From positions 1,798,001 through 1,862,000 of the forward strand of contig NC_012489.1 of assembly GCF_000010305.1 (NCBI RefSeq): 64,000 bases of DNA, read 5' to 3'. Below, piece after piece: positions 5,019-13,483 of this stretch (position 1 is the stretch's first letter; each line of letters opens with the position of its first letter). The stretch is from Gemmatimonas aurantiaca T-27. GTDB lineage: Bacteria > Gemmatimonadota > Gemmatimonadetes > Gemmatimonadales > Gemmatimonadaceae. Both the position numbers and the translations under genes were made by a program. The notes below the pieces were generated by a model, which had not been told where the DNA came from, made no database searches, and saw only the letters and a program-made list of their open reading frames with translations.

Positions 5019-5105
5019 GGACAGGTGGCCGAGTGGTTGAAGGCACCGGTCTCGAAAACCGGCATACCGGCAACGGTATCGTGAGTTCGAATCTCACCCT
5101 GTCCG
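5019..5105 (+). tRNA. tRNA-Ser(CGA)
   Basis: Complete cloverleaf: acceptor GGACAGG/CCTGTCC with discriminator G5105, anticodon stem CCGGT/ACCGG with loop CTCGAAA (anticodon CGA, reads UCG), long variable arm as expected for tRNA-Ser, and T-arm GTGAG-TTCGAAT-CTCAC. No CCA is encoded. The 3' part from the anticodon loop (5051) to 5105 is repeated exactly at 13407-13461, so this gene is the integration target of the element that follows. Its 3' half was presumably supplied by the element. Confidence 0.96.
5051..5105 (+). repeat. attL: 55-bp direct repeat, left copy (inside tRNA-Ser)
   Basis: Identical over all 55 bases to 13407-13461; the match begins at the first base of the anticodon loop and ends at the discriminator base. 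Flanking bases differ on both sides (T5050 versus C13406; T5106 versus C13462), so the repeat is delimited exactly. This is an attachment-site duplication produced by integrase-mediated insertion that keeps the tRNA gene whole. Confidence 0.94.
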
Positions 5106-5108
5106 TTA

Positions 5109-5225: not shown

Positions 5226-6455
5226 ATGGCTTCCCCTCGGATCTCTATTCGGGTTGGGATCGTACGCGGCATTGATTTTGGCCGCATTCAGGTGCGTACC
5301 GGGACCACTGATCCCGAAGAGCACGAACAGCTTCACGAGTTCTTCTGGCGGCGCATGACTGCCGGAGACGTGGACTTTCTCACCGCCGTTCGGGACCATG
5401 GGACGCGGGCGCTACGTCAGTTCTACGACGAAGCGATGTCCGGGAAACGCTCAGAGCTGCCCCTAGATCGGCCAGAGGGCTTGTCTGATGCTCTCTTGAG
5501 CTGGGTGAATGGTTTGCCCCGCGACAAGCACCGCAGGCCGTTGAAGCGCCGCACCGTCCGCACCTACAAGGAAGCTGTGAAAGCCCTGATCACGATTGGC
5601 GGGAAGGGAGCCACGGTCCACGCGATTCCCGATGTGCTGGCCGCGTACCTCGAACACTGCGAAAAGCACGGCAAGAACTTTCCCTACCGTCATGCCCGAT
5701 CCGCGTTGGCTTGCTTCGCGCGCAATACCGGCAATGAGAGGCTGTCCGCGCAGATCAAAAAGTCCCCGTGCATGCACAACGACCGAAAGCGCGACCGGGT
5801 GACCATCGAGCCGAAAGAAGTACGGCGAATCATGAAGCGAATTGATGCTGCTGGATTCTCATTCCTCAGTCAGCACTTGTGGAACTTGGCGTGTCTGGCT
5901 ATGCGTCCGTCTGAATACTGCCAAGAGAATCCGCAGACGCCCACTGAGTTGGTTTGGCGTGATGACTCAGTGCAGATCAAAGGGGGCAAGACGCGCAGTG
6001 CTCGCCGGTTCATTCCTCGATTGCCGGGAGTGCGTCCAGCTCAGAACGTGTTGTGTCTCGCTACGGGGCGCATTGGTCGTGTCTCGCCGGGCAAGGAAGG
6101 GCAGCAGCCGTACTACGCTTTGAACACGTTGCGCAAACAGTTCACGCTTGCATGCGGCGGGAAGTATCAGTTGTACGATCTCCGGGCATCCGGGATGAAG
6201 TGGCAAGAATGGGCCGGACTGTCAGAACGTCAGATTCAAGCGTTTGCGGGGCACCGTCCTTCTGTGTCGCGGGGTTACCGCACCAACGGCAACGACTATC
6301 GCGACTGGCAACGGGACATTGGTGTTGCACGAAAGAAGATGCGGGCTTGGTTCGAAACAGAAGGCGTTTTGAGAAGAAGTCCTAAAAACGAACTTGAAGA
6401 ACTAAAGAAGCAAAAAGAGGCTTTAGAACAGCGAATTCAGAAACTTTCTGCCTGA
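5226..6455 (+). CDS. Tyrosine recombinase / integrase
   Basis: 409 aa. Site-specific recombinase expected to insert and excise the element at tRNA-Ser(CGA). Start ATG 5226 has a good AAGGAG site 5 bp upstream. The N-terminal half (to about residue 190) would be the arm- and core-binding region; the catalytic part follows with Arg227 (LACLAMRPSEY), Lys252/Lys255 (IKGGKTR), Arg320 in LYDLRAS, His343 (AGHRPS) and the likely nucleophile Tyr351. The usual His of the HxxR box is Tyr317 here, a tolerated variant in divergent integrases. The last 25 residues form a Lys/Glu-rich coiled coil (ELEELKKQKEALEQRIQKL), unusual for the family. The gene is adjacent to attL and followed by a strong terminator. 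Confidence 0.92.
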   Translation: MASPRISIRVGIVRGIDFGRIQVRTGTTDPEEHEQLHEFFWRRMTAGDVDFLTAVRDHGTRALRQFYDEAMSGKRSELPLDRPEGLSDALLSWVNGLPRDKHRRPLKRRTVRTYKEAVKALITIGGKGATVHAIPDVLAAYLEHCEKHGKNFPYRHARSALACFARNTGNERLSAQIKKSPCMHNDRKRDRVTIEPKEVRRIMKRIDAAGFSFLSQHLWNLACLAMRPSEYCQENPQTPTELVWRDDSVQIKGGKTRSARRFIPRLPGVRPAQNVLCLATGRIGRVSPGKEGQQPYYALNTLRKQFTLACGGKYQLYDLRASGMKWQEWAGLSERQIQAFAGHRPSVSRGYRTNGNDYRDWQRDIGVARKKMRAWFETEGVLRRSPKNELEELKKQKEALEQRIQKLSA

Positions 6456-6594: not shown

Positions 6595-6646
6595 AGAGAC
6601 AGCTCCTACGCTCGGAGTTCTGAGTGTAGGGGCTGTCTCTTTTCTT
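6595..6646 (+). terminator. Strong intrinsic terminator after the integrase gene
   Basis: A 19-bp arm starting AGAGACAGC (6595-6613) pairs with the arm ending GCTGTCTCT (6622-6640), with two G-U pairs, an 8-base loop and a TTTCTT tail. It separates the integrase from the downstream cargo. Confidence 0.85.
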
Positions 6647-7171
6647 GAACTGGAGGTTTCACTGTGGATACACTCGCATGGCTTACAAGCTTTGATCTGA
6701 AGAACTTGAACAGTGGCCTATTCGGAGCACTGTTAGGATCTGCTGTGGGCGCAATCGGTTCCTATTGGGGGTCGTCGAAGTTGCAGGAAAGGGCTGACCA
6801 GCGACGGCGCGCAGATCAGCTGGAGCAAGAAAATAAGCGAAGGGAAGTGATACAGTCTGCGTTGGTGCTTGAGTTGCGAGTGCTCTATATGAACGCCTCT
6901 CAGAAGCGACATGTGATCAGTCAAGCGGAATCGTTTTCTATCAACTGGAGCAAAGAACCGTCACTGTGTAGGCGAATCACAGACTACGCGGATCTCTTTG
7001 CGCCGACGATTCTTCACGCAGTCGGTGAATTGGATATGCGCTTTCAGCAATTGCAGTCCGATATGAAGCAACGGGCTGGAGCAGGAGAGTATATCGGTGG
7101 TGATACCGGGGTAGATTTTCGACTGTTTTTGTTGTGCTCGTCATGTCATCGGTTGCTGTACGAACTCGACG

Positions 7172-7174
7172 CGC
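7172..7174. repeat. Target-site duplication of the first IS, left copy (CGC)
   Basis: CGC at 7172-7174 is repeated at 8428-8430 on either side of the IS3-family element. A 3-bp duplication is normal for this family, and deleting one copy with the IS restores the host reading frame. Confidence 0.75.
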
Positions 7175-7237
7175 TGAAATGCCCCGGGTTCCGTGGACAC
7201 CTACTTAAGGTGTTTACATTGGAAACGGAGGTGGCGC

Positions 7238-7534
7238 ATGAAGCGGACACGACGGCGGTTTACCGCCGAGTTTAAGCACGAGGCGGTGCGGTTAGTGCGG
7301 GAGCGCGGCGTGTCGATCGCGCAGGCGGCGCGCGAGTTGGAGATTCACGAGAATTTGTTACGCACATGGTTGCGCGCGGTAGACGAGGATGCCGAGCATC
7401 CGTTCCCTGGCGTCGGGCAGCAAAGGCCCGAACAGGCGGAGATCGCACGGTTACGACGCGAAGTGGCGCGCTTGAAGGCGGAGCGCGACATCCTAAAAAA
7501 AGCCACCGCGTTCTTCGCGAGGGAATCGACGTGA
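7238..7534 (+). CDS. IS3-family transposase OrfA
   Basis: 98 aa with an N-terminal helix-turn-helix of the HTH_Tnp_1 type (RRRFTAEFKHEAVRLVRERG) and a C-terminal leucine-zipper-like helix (EIARLRREVARLKAERDIL). It binds the IS ends. ATG 7238 has a GGAGG site just upstream. The run AAAAAAAG at 7495-7502 lets ribosomes slip -1 into orfB and make the OrfAB transposase. Confidence 0.9.
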   Translation: MKRTRRRFTAEFKHEAVRLVRERGVSIAQAARELEIHENLLRTWLRAVDEDAEHPFPGVGQQRPEQAEIARLRREVARLKAERDILKKATAFFAREST

Positions 7535-8397
7535 AGTTCGGTTTCATTGCGAAACACCGAGGCACGTGGTCGGTCGAGCTTCTCTGCGACGCTCTCGGCG
7601 TGTCGCGCAGCGGATTCTACGCGTGGTGCACGCGTCCGCCGTCTATCCGCGAGCAAGTGGATGACACGCTGCTCATGGCAATGCGGCAGAGTTTTGCGGC
7701 AAGTGATCGCACGTATGGCGTGCGCCGGGTGTGGCGCGATGTGCGCGACGCGGGCCTCACGAGTGGCCGAGAGCGCATCGCGCGCCTGATGCGCTATGCC
7801 GGTCTGCGTGCGCAGCCGAAGCGCCGACAGCGGCCACGCGACGCGCGCACGGACGTCGTGCACACGCTCGCGCCGAATGTCCTCGATCGGCAATTCACCG
7901 CGACGGCCCCGAATCAGAAATGGGTCGCGGATTTCACATATGTCTGGACCGGCGAAGGGTGGCTCTTTGTCGCGGTTGTGCTCGATCTGTTTTCACGACG
8001 CGTCGTGGGGTGGTCGATGCAAGCCGCCATGACCGCGCAGCTCGTCGCGGATGCGCTCGTGATGGCCGTCTGGCGTCGCGGACGCACGACGGCGCTCGTC
8101 CACCACTCCGACCGCGGCTCGCAATACACGAGCGAACACTTCCAACGCTTGCTGCGCGATATCGGCGTCACGTGCAGCATGAGTCGCGCGGGCAATGTGT
8201 GGGACAACGCCGTCGCCGAAAGCTTCTTTGCGACCCTCAAAACCGAACGCGTGCATCGGCAGCACTATCGCACGCGGAACGACGCACGCGCCGACATCTT
8301 CCATTTCATTGAGCGGTTTTACAATCCTGCGCGGAGGCACTCCAAACTCGGTTATCTCAGTCCGCTCGACTTCGAGCGGCTACATGCAGTAGCTTAA
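7531..8397 (+). CDS. IS3-family transposase OrfB (catalytic part)
   Basis: Frame -1 relative to OrfA; normally made as an OrfAB fusion by slippage at 7495-7502. The GTG at 7531 is a possible independent start giving 288 aa. It has an HTH_21 region then an rve integrase core with the DDE triad: Asp in WVADFTYV, Asp in HHSDRGSQYTS and Glu in NAVAESFFATLKTE. It ends 30 bp before the right IS end. No disabling change is seen. Confidence 0.9.
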   Translation: MKFGFIAKHRGTWSVELLCDALGVSRSGFYAWCTRPPSIREQVDDTLLMAMRQSFAASDRTYGVRRVWRDVRDAGLTSGRERIARLMRYAGLRAQPKRRQRPRDARTDVVHTLAPNVLDRQFTATAPNQKWVADFTYVWTGEGWLFVAVVLDLFSRRVVGWSMQAAMTAQLVADALVMAVWRRGRTTALVHHSDRGSQYTSEHFQRLLRDIGVTCSMSRAGNVWDNAVAESFFATLKTERVHRQHYRTRNDARADIFHFIERFYNPARRHSKLGYLSPLDFERLHAVA

Positions 8398-8629
8398 CTC
8401 ACTGTCTACGAAAGCTGGGGCATTTCACGCTGCCGTCTTGCTTCAAACCTGAAACACGACTCACTGCTGGACCGACGGGTTATAAGATCGAAGACGCTCT
8501 ATATGCCTTTCTGTGGTGTCAGGACGCTGGAGAGGCACCGCCAAACTTCGAGCCGGAAGAAATTTCTTTGCTCCGGGCTCCAGCATCATTCAAACCTTTT
8601 GGACGAGACCAATCTGGAGCCACCGAACA

Positions 8630-9640
8630 ATGATGCCCTTTCCTGAAGTCTATGGTCCGCTACGTGACTGGTTTCCCACGTTTATGGATCACGTGGTTCC
8701 AGCAGCGATTGTGTATGTGGAGAGTGCCGAGAAGGAGGGATGGGATCTGAGTTCAATCGTTGCGGCAGTGGTTGGCCTGTCCAGCGCGATTATTGCTATC
8801 GTGAGCGCCTGTCTTTCCTACAAAGCCGTAATCGCTACTCGCAAGTCAGCGATCCTTGCATACAAGGCTACTAGAAAGGCCGCGGACATCAGCAGACGAG
8901 CGACCGAAGATGCTACTGTGTCCGCCAATGACAACGCTATCAAATTGTTCAATCGCGCGCAGAAACATTCACGAAAGCTACAGCTCATAGAATTCAAAGA
9001 ACGCAAAGCCGAACGAGAACAGGCAGACAAAAGCAGTCTGGATCTACTCAAGCTGGATATCAACGAGCGGCGAGAGCAGGAACGGAGAGTGAGAGAAGCG
9101 CGCCGGACTGCCATTCTCGATGCGGTCAAGATCGAAGTACGGCGCATCCTGTTGACGGGTATCGAACATCAAACTTCGCTTTGGGACAAAACCCCTCTTC
9201 CGGCTGATCTGTCCTACACCATTCCATTGTGCCAACGAATCACTGATCATGCAGGTCTGTTGGAAGGGGAACTAATAACACAGATCAATGAGTTGGTTTG
9301 GTTCGTCGATGCGACTGGAAGGGCACTCCGAAATCGTGCAAAGGCGCTTGCATTTGAAGCGAAGAACAATCTCCCGTTTGAGCCTCCTCCGGTCGACAGG
9401 CAGACAAAGTATTGGATTCGCGGAACCACCTATCACGCATATCGACTACTTGAAGGGATGGATGATTTTGGGGAAGCTCACGAAACGATGTCTCTTTTCA
9501 GAGTGACGAGACTAACCATGTTCTCGCGCTTCTACGTCCCGCTCAGTCGGCGCGTGTTTCGTCTCTACAGTCGGGAGATGACAGAGCTGGAGAAGATAGA
9601 GGACAGGATAGAACAGGGCGAGGGACAGTCTGAAGAGTAG
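8630..9640 (+). CDS. Membrane-anchored coiled-coil protein (cargo gene B), paralogue of gene A
   Basis: 336 aa from ATG 8630, which overlaps the reconstructed stop of gene A as ATGA; a GTG at 8513 is possible but lies inside gene A. One transmembrane helix at about residues 41-63 (SSIVAAVVGLSSAIIAIVSA), then a long charged coiled coil (about 110-165) and a helical C-terminal domain containing LCQRITDHAGLLEGELI (200-216), matching LCRRITDYADLF of gene A (10 of 23 positions identical across that block). A second shared patch is YHAYRLLEGMDDF versus CHRLLYELDA. No enzyme motif was found. The gene is AT-rich relative to host genes and ends in a terminator. Function unknown; it probably acts at the membrane together with protein A. 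Confidence 0.85.
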   Translation: MMPFPEVYGPLRDWFPTFMDHVVPAAIVYVESAEKEGWDLSSIVAAVVGLSSAIIAIVSACLSYKAVIATRKSAILAYKATRKAADISRRATEDATVSANDNAIKLFNRAQKHSRKLQLIEFKERKAEREQADKSSLDLLKLDINERREQERRVREARRTAILDAVKIEVRRILLTGIEHQTSLWDKTPLPADLSYTIPLCQRITDHAGLLEGELITQINELVWFVDATGRALRNRAKALAFEAKNNLPFEPPPVDRQTKYWIRGTTYHAYRLLEGMDDFGEAHETMSLFRVTRLTMFSRFYVPLSRRVFRLYSREMTELEKIEDRIEQGEGQSEE

Positions 9641-9647
9641 CAACACA

Positions 9648-9690
9648 AAGCCCCACACTCGATGGTCTGAGCGGTGGGGCTCTTTCGTTC
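9648..9690 (+). terminator. Intrinsic terminator after cargo gene B
   Basis: AGCCCCAC (9649-9656) pairs with GTGGGGCT (9674-9681), followed by CTTTCGTT. It closes the A-B operon. Confidence 0.75.
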
Positions 9691-9758
9691 TACCAATCCA
9701 TACGCGGTGCACATGGTTTGCCCTTGAAATCAAATCCGTTGCCACGTAAGCTTCCCCG

Positions 9759-10646
9759 TCAAGCAGACAGTTGCAAACTGGACTCGGACGGTGTGGTTGG
9801 CCTCGGCAGAAAGATGAGCGGAGGGACCCCACCGAGGCTGTCATGGGGGCGCTCCGTGTTGTATGTCATGAGCCACGTTTCCGTCTCCGCGCGGACCTGC
9901 GCGAGCGAGGCGAAGATGTACGCATCGAGGACTTCGCGGCGATACGTGCGATTGAAACGCTCGATGTACGCGTTCTGATTGGGTTTGCCGGGTTGGATGT
10001 GCTGCAGCCGTACTCCGTGTTGTTCGCACCAAGTCGTGAGCGCATGAGAGATGAGCTCAGGCCCGTTGTCACAGCGGATGGTGCATGGCGCGCCATGGAT
10101 CGCGAGCAGTTGCTCGAGCACGCTGACGACGCGCGTGCCGGGCAGCGACGTACTGACTTCTATAGCGAGGGCTTCGCGGTTGCCTTCATCCAGCACGTTC
10201 AACGTGCGGAAGCGCCGCCCGTCGTAGAGCATATCGTGCATGAAGTCGAGCGCCCGGGTGTGATTGAGCTGCGGTGGGGCGTCGAGCGGCTGCTGCACCC
10301 GCTGTGGAAGCCGGCGCTTCGTGCGCCGCGGCAGGTTGAGCCGCAGCGCGCAATACACGCGATGTACGCGCTTCCAGTTCCACCCGTGCCCATCGAGCCG
10401 CAGGCGATCGAAGCACTTCCAGAAGCCCCAGCGCGGGCGTGCTGCCGCGAGCGTCGTCAACGCGGCGATGACCTCCGCGTCGCGCTCCACCCGGTCCGAC
10501 AGCGGCGTGTAGTATGCCGCCCGCGCGAGGCCGGCGATGCGGCATGCGCGCACGACCGAGAGGCCGTGTTGCGTGACCAGCGTCGTCGCGACCTGCCGCA
10601 TCGCCGGCCTCGCGCGGGCGACCCTACAGTTTGCGCGAGAGGACAT
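9759..10646 (-). CDS. IS3-family transposase OrfB
   Basis: About 295 aa from ATG 10644-10646, overlapping the orfA end. It has an N-terminal HTH_21-like region (HGLSVVRACRIAGLARAAYY) and an rve core with the DDE residues in LDFMHDML, IRCDNGPELIS and NAYIERFNRTYRREVLD, ending with the usual ERPHDSLGG motif. The reading frame is intact. The upstream open frame extends to 10703, so the exact start is uncertain. Confidence 0.9.
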   Translation of the reverse strand: MSSRANCRVARARPAMRQVATTLVTQHGLSVVRACRIAGLARAAYYTPLSDRVERDAEVIAALTTLAAARPRWGFWKCFDRLRLDGHGWNWKRVHRVYCALRLNLPRRTKRRLPQRVQQPLDAPPQLNHTRALDFMHDMLYDGRRFRTLNVLDEGNREALAIEVSTSLPGTRVVSVLEQLLAIHGAPCTIRCDNGPELISHALTTWCEQHGVRLQHIQPGKPNQNAYIERFNRTYRREVLDAYIFASLAQVRAETETWLMTYNTERPHDSLGGVPPLIFLPRPTTPSESSLQLSA

Positions 10647-10890
10647 CCTTGATGGCCGTGTTCTCGAGTGCGAGCTCCGCATACATCCGCTTGAGTTGCG
10701 CATTCTCGGTCTCGAGTTCGCGCCGCCGCTTCAACTCCGCCACGGTCGACCCACCGTACTTTCGCTTCCAGGTGAAGAAGGTCGCCCGACTGATGCCGTG
10801 TTGGCGAAGCACCTCCGCCACCGGCAATCCGCTCTCCACCGCCTGCAGGATCTCGACGATTTGACTCTCACTGAACTTCGATCGGCGCAT
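10624..10890 (-). CDS. IS3-family transposase OrfA
   Basis: 88 aa with helix-turn-helix SESQIVEILQAVESGLPVAE and C-terminal coiled coil ELETENAQLKRMYAELALEN, as in IS407-type OrfA. It overlaps OrfB by about 23 bp. Confidence 0.9.
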   Translation of the reverse strand: MRRSKFSESQIVEILQAVESGLPVAEVLRQHGISRATFFTWKRKYGGSTVAELKRRRELETENAQLKRMYAELALENTAIKDVLSRKL

Positions 10891-10954
10891 CGCTCCTCCT
10901 GAAATGCACCACCAAAGTCTAGCTCACACTGTCTGGGTTCGGGGGAAGCTTACG

Positions 10955-11129: not shown

Positions 11130-12194
11130 TCACTCGTTCAGTTGATTCAGAAACTCTTCAATCCAGTCGTTCCGAAGAAATGCGGTAAAGCCCCCACCTC
11201 TAGGCATGCGCGTGCGGTACTGAGACGGCTGAAATACGCGATAGCCGGTGATATTTTCAATAACGTCCTTCGAGTCGTCAACGGTCTTGCATATGACTGT
11301 CATAGGTGCGTCGGTCGATAGGTGCGAATGAATGGCATCCGTGATGTGACCGTCAGCCCCTCGCCATCCTATTGATAGGAGGTGCGTTGCTTCTTGAATT
11401 GCCGTTATGAATGCCTCCTTCTGTTCTGGTGGACACATGAAGGTCAGCTTCTGTCTTACTGGGACTGCGATGGCCGGAAGGTGGTAGAGCCCGTTGAAGT
11501 GCAAATGAGGATCCGGATCGAACGCGAGAACAGGAAATTGGCCTTCGACTAGTTCAGCTGCGTTCTCGATGTAGCGTTCTTCATTCGTATGATTTGTGGT
11601 GAAGGTTTCGTTGTGCAATGGGCTGTACCAATGCACCGATCCATGGACTTTCAACAGCTTCGGCCTCTTGGAAGACAGATAGTCATTCATGTGCCGATAC
11701 TGAGGGATGCCAAAGGTTGATATGGCGTCCTCAATCAGGCGATCATAGTTGAGCGTCACAATCGTTAGGTCTTTAACAATGTCGATGTGGTCGGACAGAC
11801 GATGTAGAAGAGTCATCCAGTTCGTATTGATTTGATCGGTGCGGCACCAACTGTTTTCCGTGTCTGCAATGACCTTACGGATGTAGAAGCGAGCTGACAT
11901 GAGCTGTGCCGCACGATAGGGATTGTCTTTTACTCCCTCTTGCAGGCGCGACAGTACATCCTCAATGGTCGTGTCTCCCGTGAAACTCGCCAGTGGATCA
12001 ATGATGGGCTTCATGCGCTTGTAGTCCTTCTGCAACGGCCTGAAGCGGGGATGAAAGAGATCATTGGCAAGCGGAATACGCTGACCCGCTCCGGGATCGG
12101 CTGTCGGTGGCATTGTCTGTGTAATGATTGGCGCACGCATCGGATCGCTGTCATACGACGCACCGGCACCGGCAATAATGAGAAGTTTGGGCAT
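11130..12194 (-). CDS. SIR2-family NAD-binding protein, candidate anti-phage NADase
   Basis: 354 aa. SIR2-like proteins in mobile elements commonly hydrolyse NAD+ on phage sensing and stop host growth. Visible motifs: nucleotide-binding GAGAS (9-13), TLNYDRLIE (147-155) typical of the bacterial SIR2_2/SIR2-like group, KVHGS with the presumed catalytic His184, and LLSIGWRGAD (272-281) in place of the classical GTS/SGxS loop. There is no second recognisable effector or sensor domain. It starts 8 bp after the stop of the small membrane gene (12203-12685), so the two form an operon read toward the element interior. Base composition is AT-richer than host genes. A defence role is inferred from family and context. 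Confidence 0.85.
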   Translation of the reverse strand: MPKLLIIAGAGASYDSDPMRAPIITQTMPPTADPGAGQRIPLANDLFHPRFRPLQKDYKRMKPIIDPLASFTGDTTIEDVLSRLQEGVKDNPYRAAQLMSARFYIRKVIADTENSWCRTDQINTNWMTLLHRLSDHIDIVKDLTIVTLNYDRLIEDAISTFGIPQYRHMNDYLSSKRPKLLKVHGSVHWYSPLHNETFTTNHTNEERYIENAAELVEGQFPVLAFDPDPHLHFNGLYHLPAIAVPVRQKLTFMCPPEQKEAFITAIQEATHLLSIGWRGADGHITDAIHSHLSTDAPMTVICKTVDDSKDVIENITGYRVFQPSQYRTRMPRGGGFTAFLRNDWIEEFLNQLNE

Positions 12195-12202
12195 GCCCCA
12201 AT

Positions 12203-12685
12203 TTACCGCGAACGGATCACGCTGGCTGATCGCCGCAACCCAGCGACATATCTACGAATCAGAGGAGGACGGGGCGGAGTTGGCGAACACAGTTCAACCA
12301 ACAGCTTGGCATGGGCCTGAACTTGAGCTGAACGATTCCGAACCGACACAGAGCTAGGCGGTTGGATGACCAAAGCATTCCGCAGTTCCTCGATGCTCTG
12401 AAGTAGGTCCGTCAGAACTTCCACAATGTCTGAATCCAGTGCCCCCCGGTCCACCTCCAAGAGCTTGTCAATTCGCTCCAGCAACGTACCTGTTTGGCGA
12501 AGCATGTCTTCTGATGTAACCAAAGGTGCCACCATACGAGCGGCGTCACGTGCCAGCTCACGGCACTTTCGATGGGCAGCCTTCATGTCGGCTGGAAGTG
12601 CTTGAACGCGAAGCCCCCAGACCCAGTGAATAGCTCCAGCCCCAAACGTGATGATTGCGACAACGGCGGCGAGTTGTTCCAGCAT
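12203..12685 (-). CDS. Small membrane-anchored helical protein, upstream partner of SIR2
   Basis: 160 aa. One N-terminal membrane helix (about residues 5-24, LAAVVAIITFGAGAIHWVWG), then a mostly helical soluble part (about 30-110) with coiled-coil character, and a Pro/Arg-rich tail. No known family recognised. It is the first gene of the SIR2 operon (8-bp gap). The layout, a membrane anchor followed by a helical region, echoes cargo genes A and B although no sequence match is evident. It may tether or regulate the SIR2 effector, or detect membrane events during infection. This is inference. Confidence 0.7.
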   Translation of the reverse strand: MLEQLAAVVAIITFGAGAIHWVWGLRVQALPADMKAAHRKCRELARDAARMVAPLVTSEDMLRQTGTLLERIDKLLEVDRGALDSDIVEVLTDLLQSIEELRNALVIQPPSSVSVRNRSAQVQAHAKLLVELCSPTPPRPPLIRRYVAGLRRSASVIRSR

Positions 12686-13406: not shown

Positions 13407-13461
13407 CTCGAAAACCGGCATACCGGCAACGGTATCGTGAGTTCGAATCTCACCCTGTCCG
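13407..13461 (+). repeat. attR: 55-bp direct repeat, right copy
   Basis: Exact copy of the tRNA-Ser(CGA) 3' half from the anticodon loop to the discriminator base. It has no 5' half and is not a tRNA gene. It marks the right junction with the chromosome and is the displaced original 3' end of the host tRNA. Confidence 0.94.
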
Positions 13462-13483
13462 CTATAGGTACCGCAGGTATCTG

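Follow-up and report, generated by a model that had tools for sequence, protein, structure and literature searches.

New defence genes are found in abundance in integrons and small tRNA islands, where most of the membrane-anchored helical proteins lack a family name. The closest known families to the two proteins treated here, A and B, are presumably DUF4760 (PF15956) and putAbiC (PF16872), a putative phage abortive infection protein. DUF4760 is, like A and B, a small helical protein and is common in Gemmatimonadota, but the members that we have seen have no membrane helix and the profiles are dissimilar. The putAbiC proteins share with A and B the order of membrane helices, then a coiled coil, then a helical domain, but their conserved C-terminal block is another one and here too the profiles differ. 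Neither family gave a Pfam match to A or B, hhalign reached 0.1-0.4% for DUF4760 and 0.1-0.2% for putAbiC, and both were rejected.

Against Pfam, NCBIfam, PADLOC and PHROGs neither protein gave anything above chance, and the weak PHROG and NCBIfam matches of B, which fall on its membrane helix and coiled coil, were set aside. The anti-phage models of PADLOC-DB 2.0.0 gave 0 matches to A and B, while the neighbouring SIR2 does match. B found nothing among PDB sequences, and the best PDB rows for A (0.003, designed SAKe proteins) cover residues 3-41 and were counted as chance. An earlier sequence-only reading of this DNA had recognised no known family for the two proteins, and this holds after the searches, as none of Pfam, PADLOC, NCBIfam, PHROGs or the PDB sequences offers one that fits.

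The sequence architecture, the paralogy, the disruption of A and the mobile setting of the pair are observed. The explanation that we favour, with moderate confidence, is that A and B form a tandem, now broken, from a superfamily of helical proteins anchored in the membrane by a single helix, which is undescribed and evolves fast, and that they probably are accessory or defence-type cargo.

A small element in a tRNA-Ser gene

The window, by which we mean the whole stretch of 64,000 nucleotides of DNA that was analysed, is part of the single-contig genome of Gemmatimonas aurantiaca T-27 (4,636,964 bp), and its features are collected in Table 1. The last 58 bp of the tRNA-Ser(CGA) gene recur at 13407-13464 with one mismatch (57/58), and between these att repeats lie ~8.36 kb with an integrase-like ORF, genes A and B, a SIR2-like gene and its upstream partner, and two IS elements. 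The GC content is 51-52% in A, B and SIR2 and 64-65% in the flanks outside the element. The att repeats and the low GC thus mark the region as a small integrative element of ~8.4 kb in tRNA-Ser, and A and B are cargo of this element, which also bears the SIR2_2 gene.

The integrase of the element has no match in Pfam or NCBIfam, and from R...GH...Y-like motifs, read by eye, it would be a divergent tyrosine recombinase. Its relatives are few, one at 48% and one at 29% identity among 200 Gemmatimonadota genomes. The hairpin that follows it stops 24 nt short of the start codon of A, a space in which a promoter of A cannot fit; the hairpin may act as an attenuator within the leader of A-B rather than as a plain terminator of the integrase gene. 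The IS within A (7175-8427) is a single copy in the genome and the IS between B and SIR2 (9745-10954) is the only one of its type present in full, from which both insertions are probably older than the arrival of the element, unless other copies have been lost. The gene directly upstream of SIR2, which gave nothing above chance with Pfam and other family models, is a possible partner of SIR2; alignments ruled it out as a relative of A and B.

Table 1. Features of the element in the window, with the solo relatives of A by locus
Feature	Position	Strand	Basis
tRNA-Ser (CGA), integration target	5019..5105	+	ARAGORN; Rfam RF00005 61.6 bits
Left attachment repeat, 3' part of tRNA-Ser gene	5051..5108	+	58-nt direct repeat, 98% identical to 13407-13464
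Putative divergent tyrosine-recombinase-like integrase	5226..6455	+	409-aa ORF adjoining att site; 48% identical relative in G073
Long terminator-like hairpin between integrase and A	6595..6640	+	20-pair stem, then TTTTCTT; z -5.5
Gene A, 5' part: weak membrane helix, coiled coil, helix with LCRRITDYADL	6664..7174	+	ORF; alignment with B
IS3-type insertion sequence in A	7175..8427	+	35-nt inverted repeats; HTH_Tnp_1 5.5e-18
Gene A, 3' part: 67 codons and stop	8431..8633	+	In frame with 5' part once flanks are joined
Gene B, 336 aa: membrane helix ~43-61, long coiled coil, helix with LCQRITDHAGL	8630..9640	+	ORF; hydropathy; helical model of low confidence
Terminator-like hairpin after B	~9649..9681	+	G+C-rich, T-rich tail; -19.8 kcal/mol, z -3.25
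Second IS3-type insertion sequence, between B and SIR2	9745..10954	-	27-nt inverted repeats; rve_3 8e-28
SIR2-like gene, separate unit convergent with A-B	11130..12194	-	SIR2_2 38.5 bits (cut-off 24.5); PADLOC SIR2 1.7e-11
Gene before SIR2: N-terminal membrane helix and helical domain	12203..12685	-	Hydropathy, alignments
Right attachment repeat	13407..13464	+	Direct-repeat partner of tRNA-Ser 3' end
Solo membrane-helix genes, no family name	L007 1240-1857; L013 1393-1959; L012 1489-1887; L036 1378-2037		

The interrupted gene A and its paralogue B

Gene A starts with a GTG (6664) preceded by TGGAGG, and is interrupted by an IS of 1253 bp whose 35-nt terminal inverted repeats are 77% complementary and which has a 3-bp target duplication, CGC, on both sides (7172-7174 and 8428-8430). 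When the flanks were joined by script to recreate the empty site, A became one frame of 237 codons with its TGA at 8631-8633. As it is present in the genome, A encodes a truncated product of 203 aa, the final 33 residues of which come from the IS. The insertion strips the last 67 residues from A and probably lowers the expression of B, and since A is short of these residues the pair probably does not function in this strain. The ATG of B (8630) overlaps the end of the IS-free A as ATGA, and the frame of B is intact over 336 codons, with a coding-like GC content of 59/42/55% at the three codon positions. A and B would be, or have been, one two-gene transcription unit of membrane-anchored, mainly helical proteins.

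The sequence-only reading had described this overlap after removal of the IS, together with a terminator common to both genes, and the frame of the empty site and the fold of the hairpin after B agree with it. It had also given each protein one N-terminal membrane helix. A clear one is predicted for B, where the Kyte-Doolittle maximum reaches 2.49 near residues 43-61, and a weak one for A, where it reaches 1.27. The paralogy that it proposed for the two genes is well borne out. Besides the common block, LCRRITDYADL in A and LCQRITDHAGL in B, a local alignment of A with B in which the coiled coil was left out scored 56 against 28.2 (sd 4.5) for shuffled sequences (z 6.2, a score that no shuffle out of 1000 reached), BLASTP of the uninterrupted part of A against B gave an E of 4e-4 over 61 residues, and hhalign of A against B gave 79%. 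To judge from these comparisons the paralogy of A and B extends over a single helical segment of ~60 residues, and they would have arisen from each other through an old duplication. The LCxRITDxAxL block lies on a predicted helix in both (99-137 in A and 197-246 in B) in models of low confidence, the mean pLDDT of AlphaFold run with no alignment being 51 for A and 52 for B; with such poor models, the helical bundle of A and B refers to secondary structure only.

Solo relatives in Gemmatimonadota

Near relatives of A or B were found in none of ~85,000 genomes, viral contigs, plasmids, phages and sampled Gemmatimonadota, the scans of genomes, viral contigs, plasmids and phages being sensitive to close relatives only. 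Co-occurrence of A and B was looked for in the same collections and a second pair was found in none of them, so that the two-gene module of the sequence-only reading could not be upheld as a conserved one. Among 395 Gemmatimonadota genomes, A as a query gave one meaningful weak match, L007, which led on to L012 and L013 and then to L036. Among the other matches of A are, by eye, PilO-like type IV pilus genes (L006, L008 and L010) and a RecJ-like gene (L009). Of the first weak matches of B in the phylum (L002, L003 and L004), L002 and L003 were inspected and correspond to reading frames in unrelated genes or outside any gene.

A profile made from the four solo proteins picks A with an E of 1.1e-7 among 1096 ORFs, where the next best has 1.6, and hhalign of A against the profile gives 78% (E 1.9e-5, over A 54-135). 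The identity between A and the solo proteins is ~24%, and the match rests partly on the membrane helix and the coiled coil; the core of A that remains when these two are removed scores a modest 9.9 bits against the profile, compared with at most 6.3 bits in 2000 shuffles. By this measure of sequence likeness A is distantly related to the four solo Gemmatimonadota proteins. B gave no match to the four-solo profile alone (hhalign 0.5%) and an E of 0.011 once A was added to the profile, i.e. B joins by way of A, and its membership in the superfamily would be indirect. A scan of viral contigs with the alignment of the solo proteins found nothing.

The solo proteins are like A in having an N-terminal membrane helix (in L012 on a separate reading frame; in L007 with a hydropathy of 1.76), an xALLxELRxL helix, a second helix, and a third helix with Arg. 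They differ from A and B in being encoded by single genes, two of them in integrons, and in having no LCxRITDxAxL block, and the coiled coil of B is much longer than theirs. The L007 gene is the whole content of one cassette between ~140-bp repeats, present in three copies, whose ends are inverted as is typical of attC sites, and the L013 gene stands first behind an ORF that matches the integron integrase model (TIGR02249, 414.7 bits with a cut-off of 265). In a Gemmatimonadota genome, L023 6609-9000 is an array of integron cassettes in which attC-like repeats of ~140 bp occur three times. No second superfamily member stands beside the L007 and L013 genes in the stretches examined, and from these single-gene contexts the superfamily thus occurs outside the A-B tandem as single mobile genes, at least two of them in integrons.

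We hypothesize that members of the superfamily consist of a single N-terminal membrane helix, a charged coiled coil that varies in length and a short helical bundle. The helix would anchor the protein, the coiled coil would form homo- or hetero-oligomers, and the cytoplasmic bundle would sense or bind a target, much as cargo of the abortive-infection type or other conflict cargo does. Of the integron cassettes tested in Vibrio, about a tenth protect against phage (PMC12409362), which by analogy would make a defence role plausible for the integron-borne solo genes; for A and B such a role is plausible from their location. If the superfamily, consisting of A and the four solo relatives, holds with more sequences, it would provide a searchable profile for cargo that now is annotated as hypothetical. 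The A-B pair is by itself one case only, and a partly broken one.

Defence, element service or decay

It could be imagined that A and B make up a membrane defence of two components that has so far gone unrecognised, in which a hetero-oligomer of the two at the inner membrane kills phage-infected cells or arrests them, perhaps jointly with the SIR2 NADase. The pair is paralogous, coupled through ATGA and equipped with a terminator of its own, and it shares a small element with SIR2, but we regard this as rather unlikely, as the pair recurs in no collection searched and the relatives of A are solo. The location with SIR2, which had pointed the sequence-only reading to a defence or conflict system, stands in so far as both are in the same mobile element, but the link is weak, with SIR2 on the other strand in an operon of its own that is convergent with A-B. 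A sister island in a genome of the same genus (G073), with an integrase 48% identical and a SIR2 37% identical to those of the element, has a different gene upstream of SIR2 and neither A nor B, and SIR2 therefore does not need A-B. The A-B module is one unrepeated, broken tandem, and a two-gene defence system is not shown by it. The wider claim, that the pair is the first example of a two-component membrane conflict system of two paralogous single-helix, coiled-coil proteins, and belongs to a large superfamily, as yet unrecognised, whose members travel as defence cargo in the integrons and tRNA islands of Gemmatimonadota, we find unlikely.

A and B come directly after the integrase on the same strand, and they could serve the element itself, for instance in maintenance, entry exclusion, excision control or membrane regulation, instead of taking part in defence. 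This is quite improbable, however, when a terminator-like hairpin separates them from the integrase, when the related integrase of G073 does without them, and when the relatives are found in integrons that have no such integrase. That both genes are decaying remnants with no present function would agree with the IS that breaks A, the second IS that adjoins B and the failure of any relative to keep the pair, but B has retained its start, its terminator and a full-length frame with the codon-position GC of a coding gene, and we consider pure decay very improbable. The sister island (L029, G073:C1:1586500-1606000) has, besides its related integrase, a SIR2 that weakly matches the PADLOC model Aga_SIR2, and further on it has a gene set that by eye is DndB- or ATPase-like with an HNH gene.
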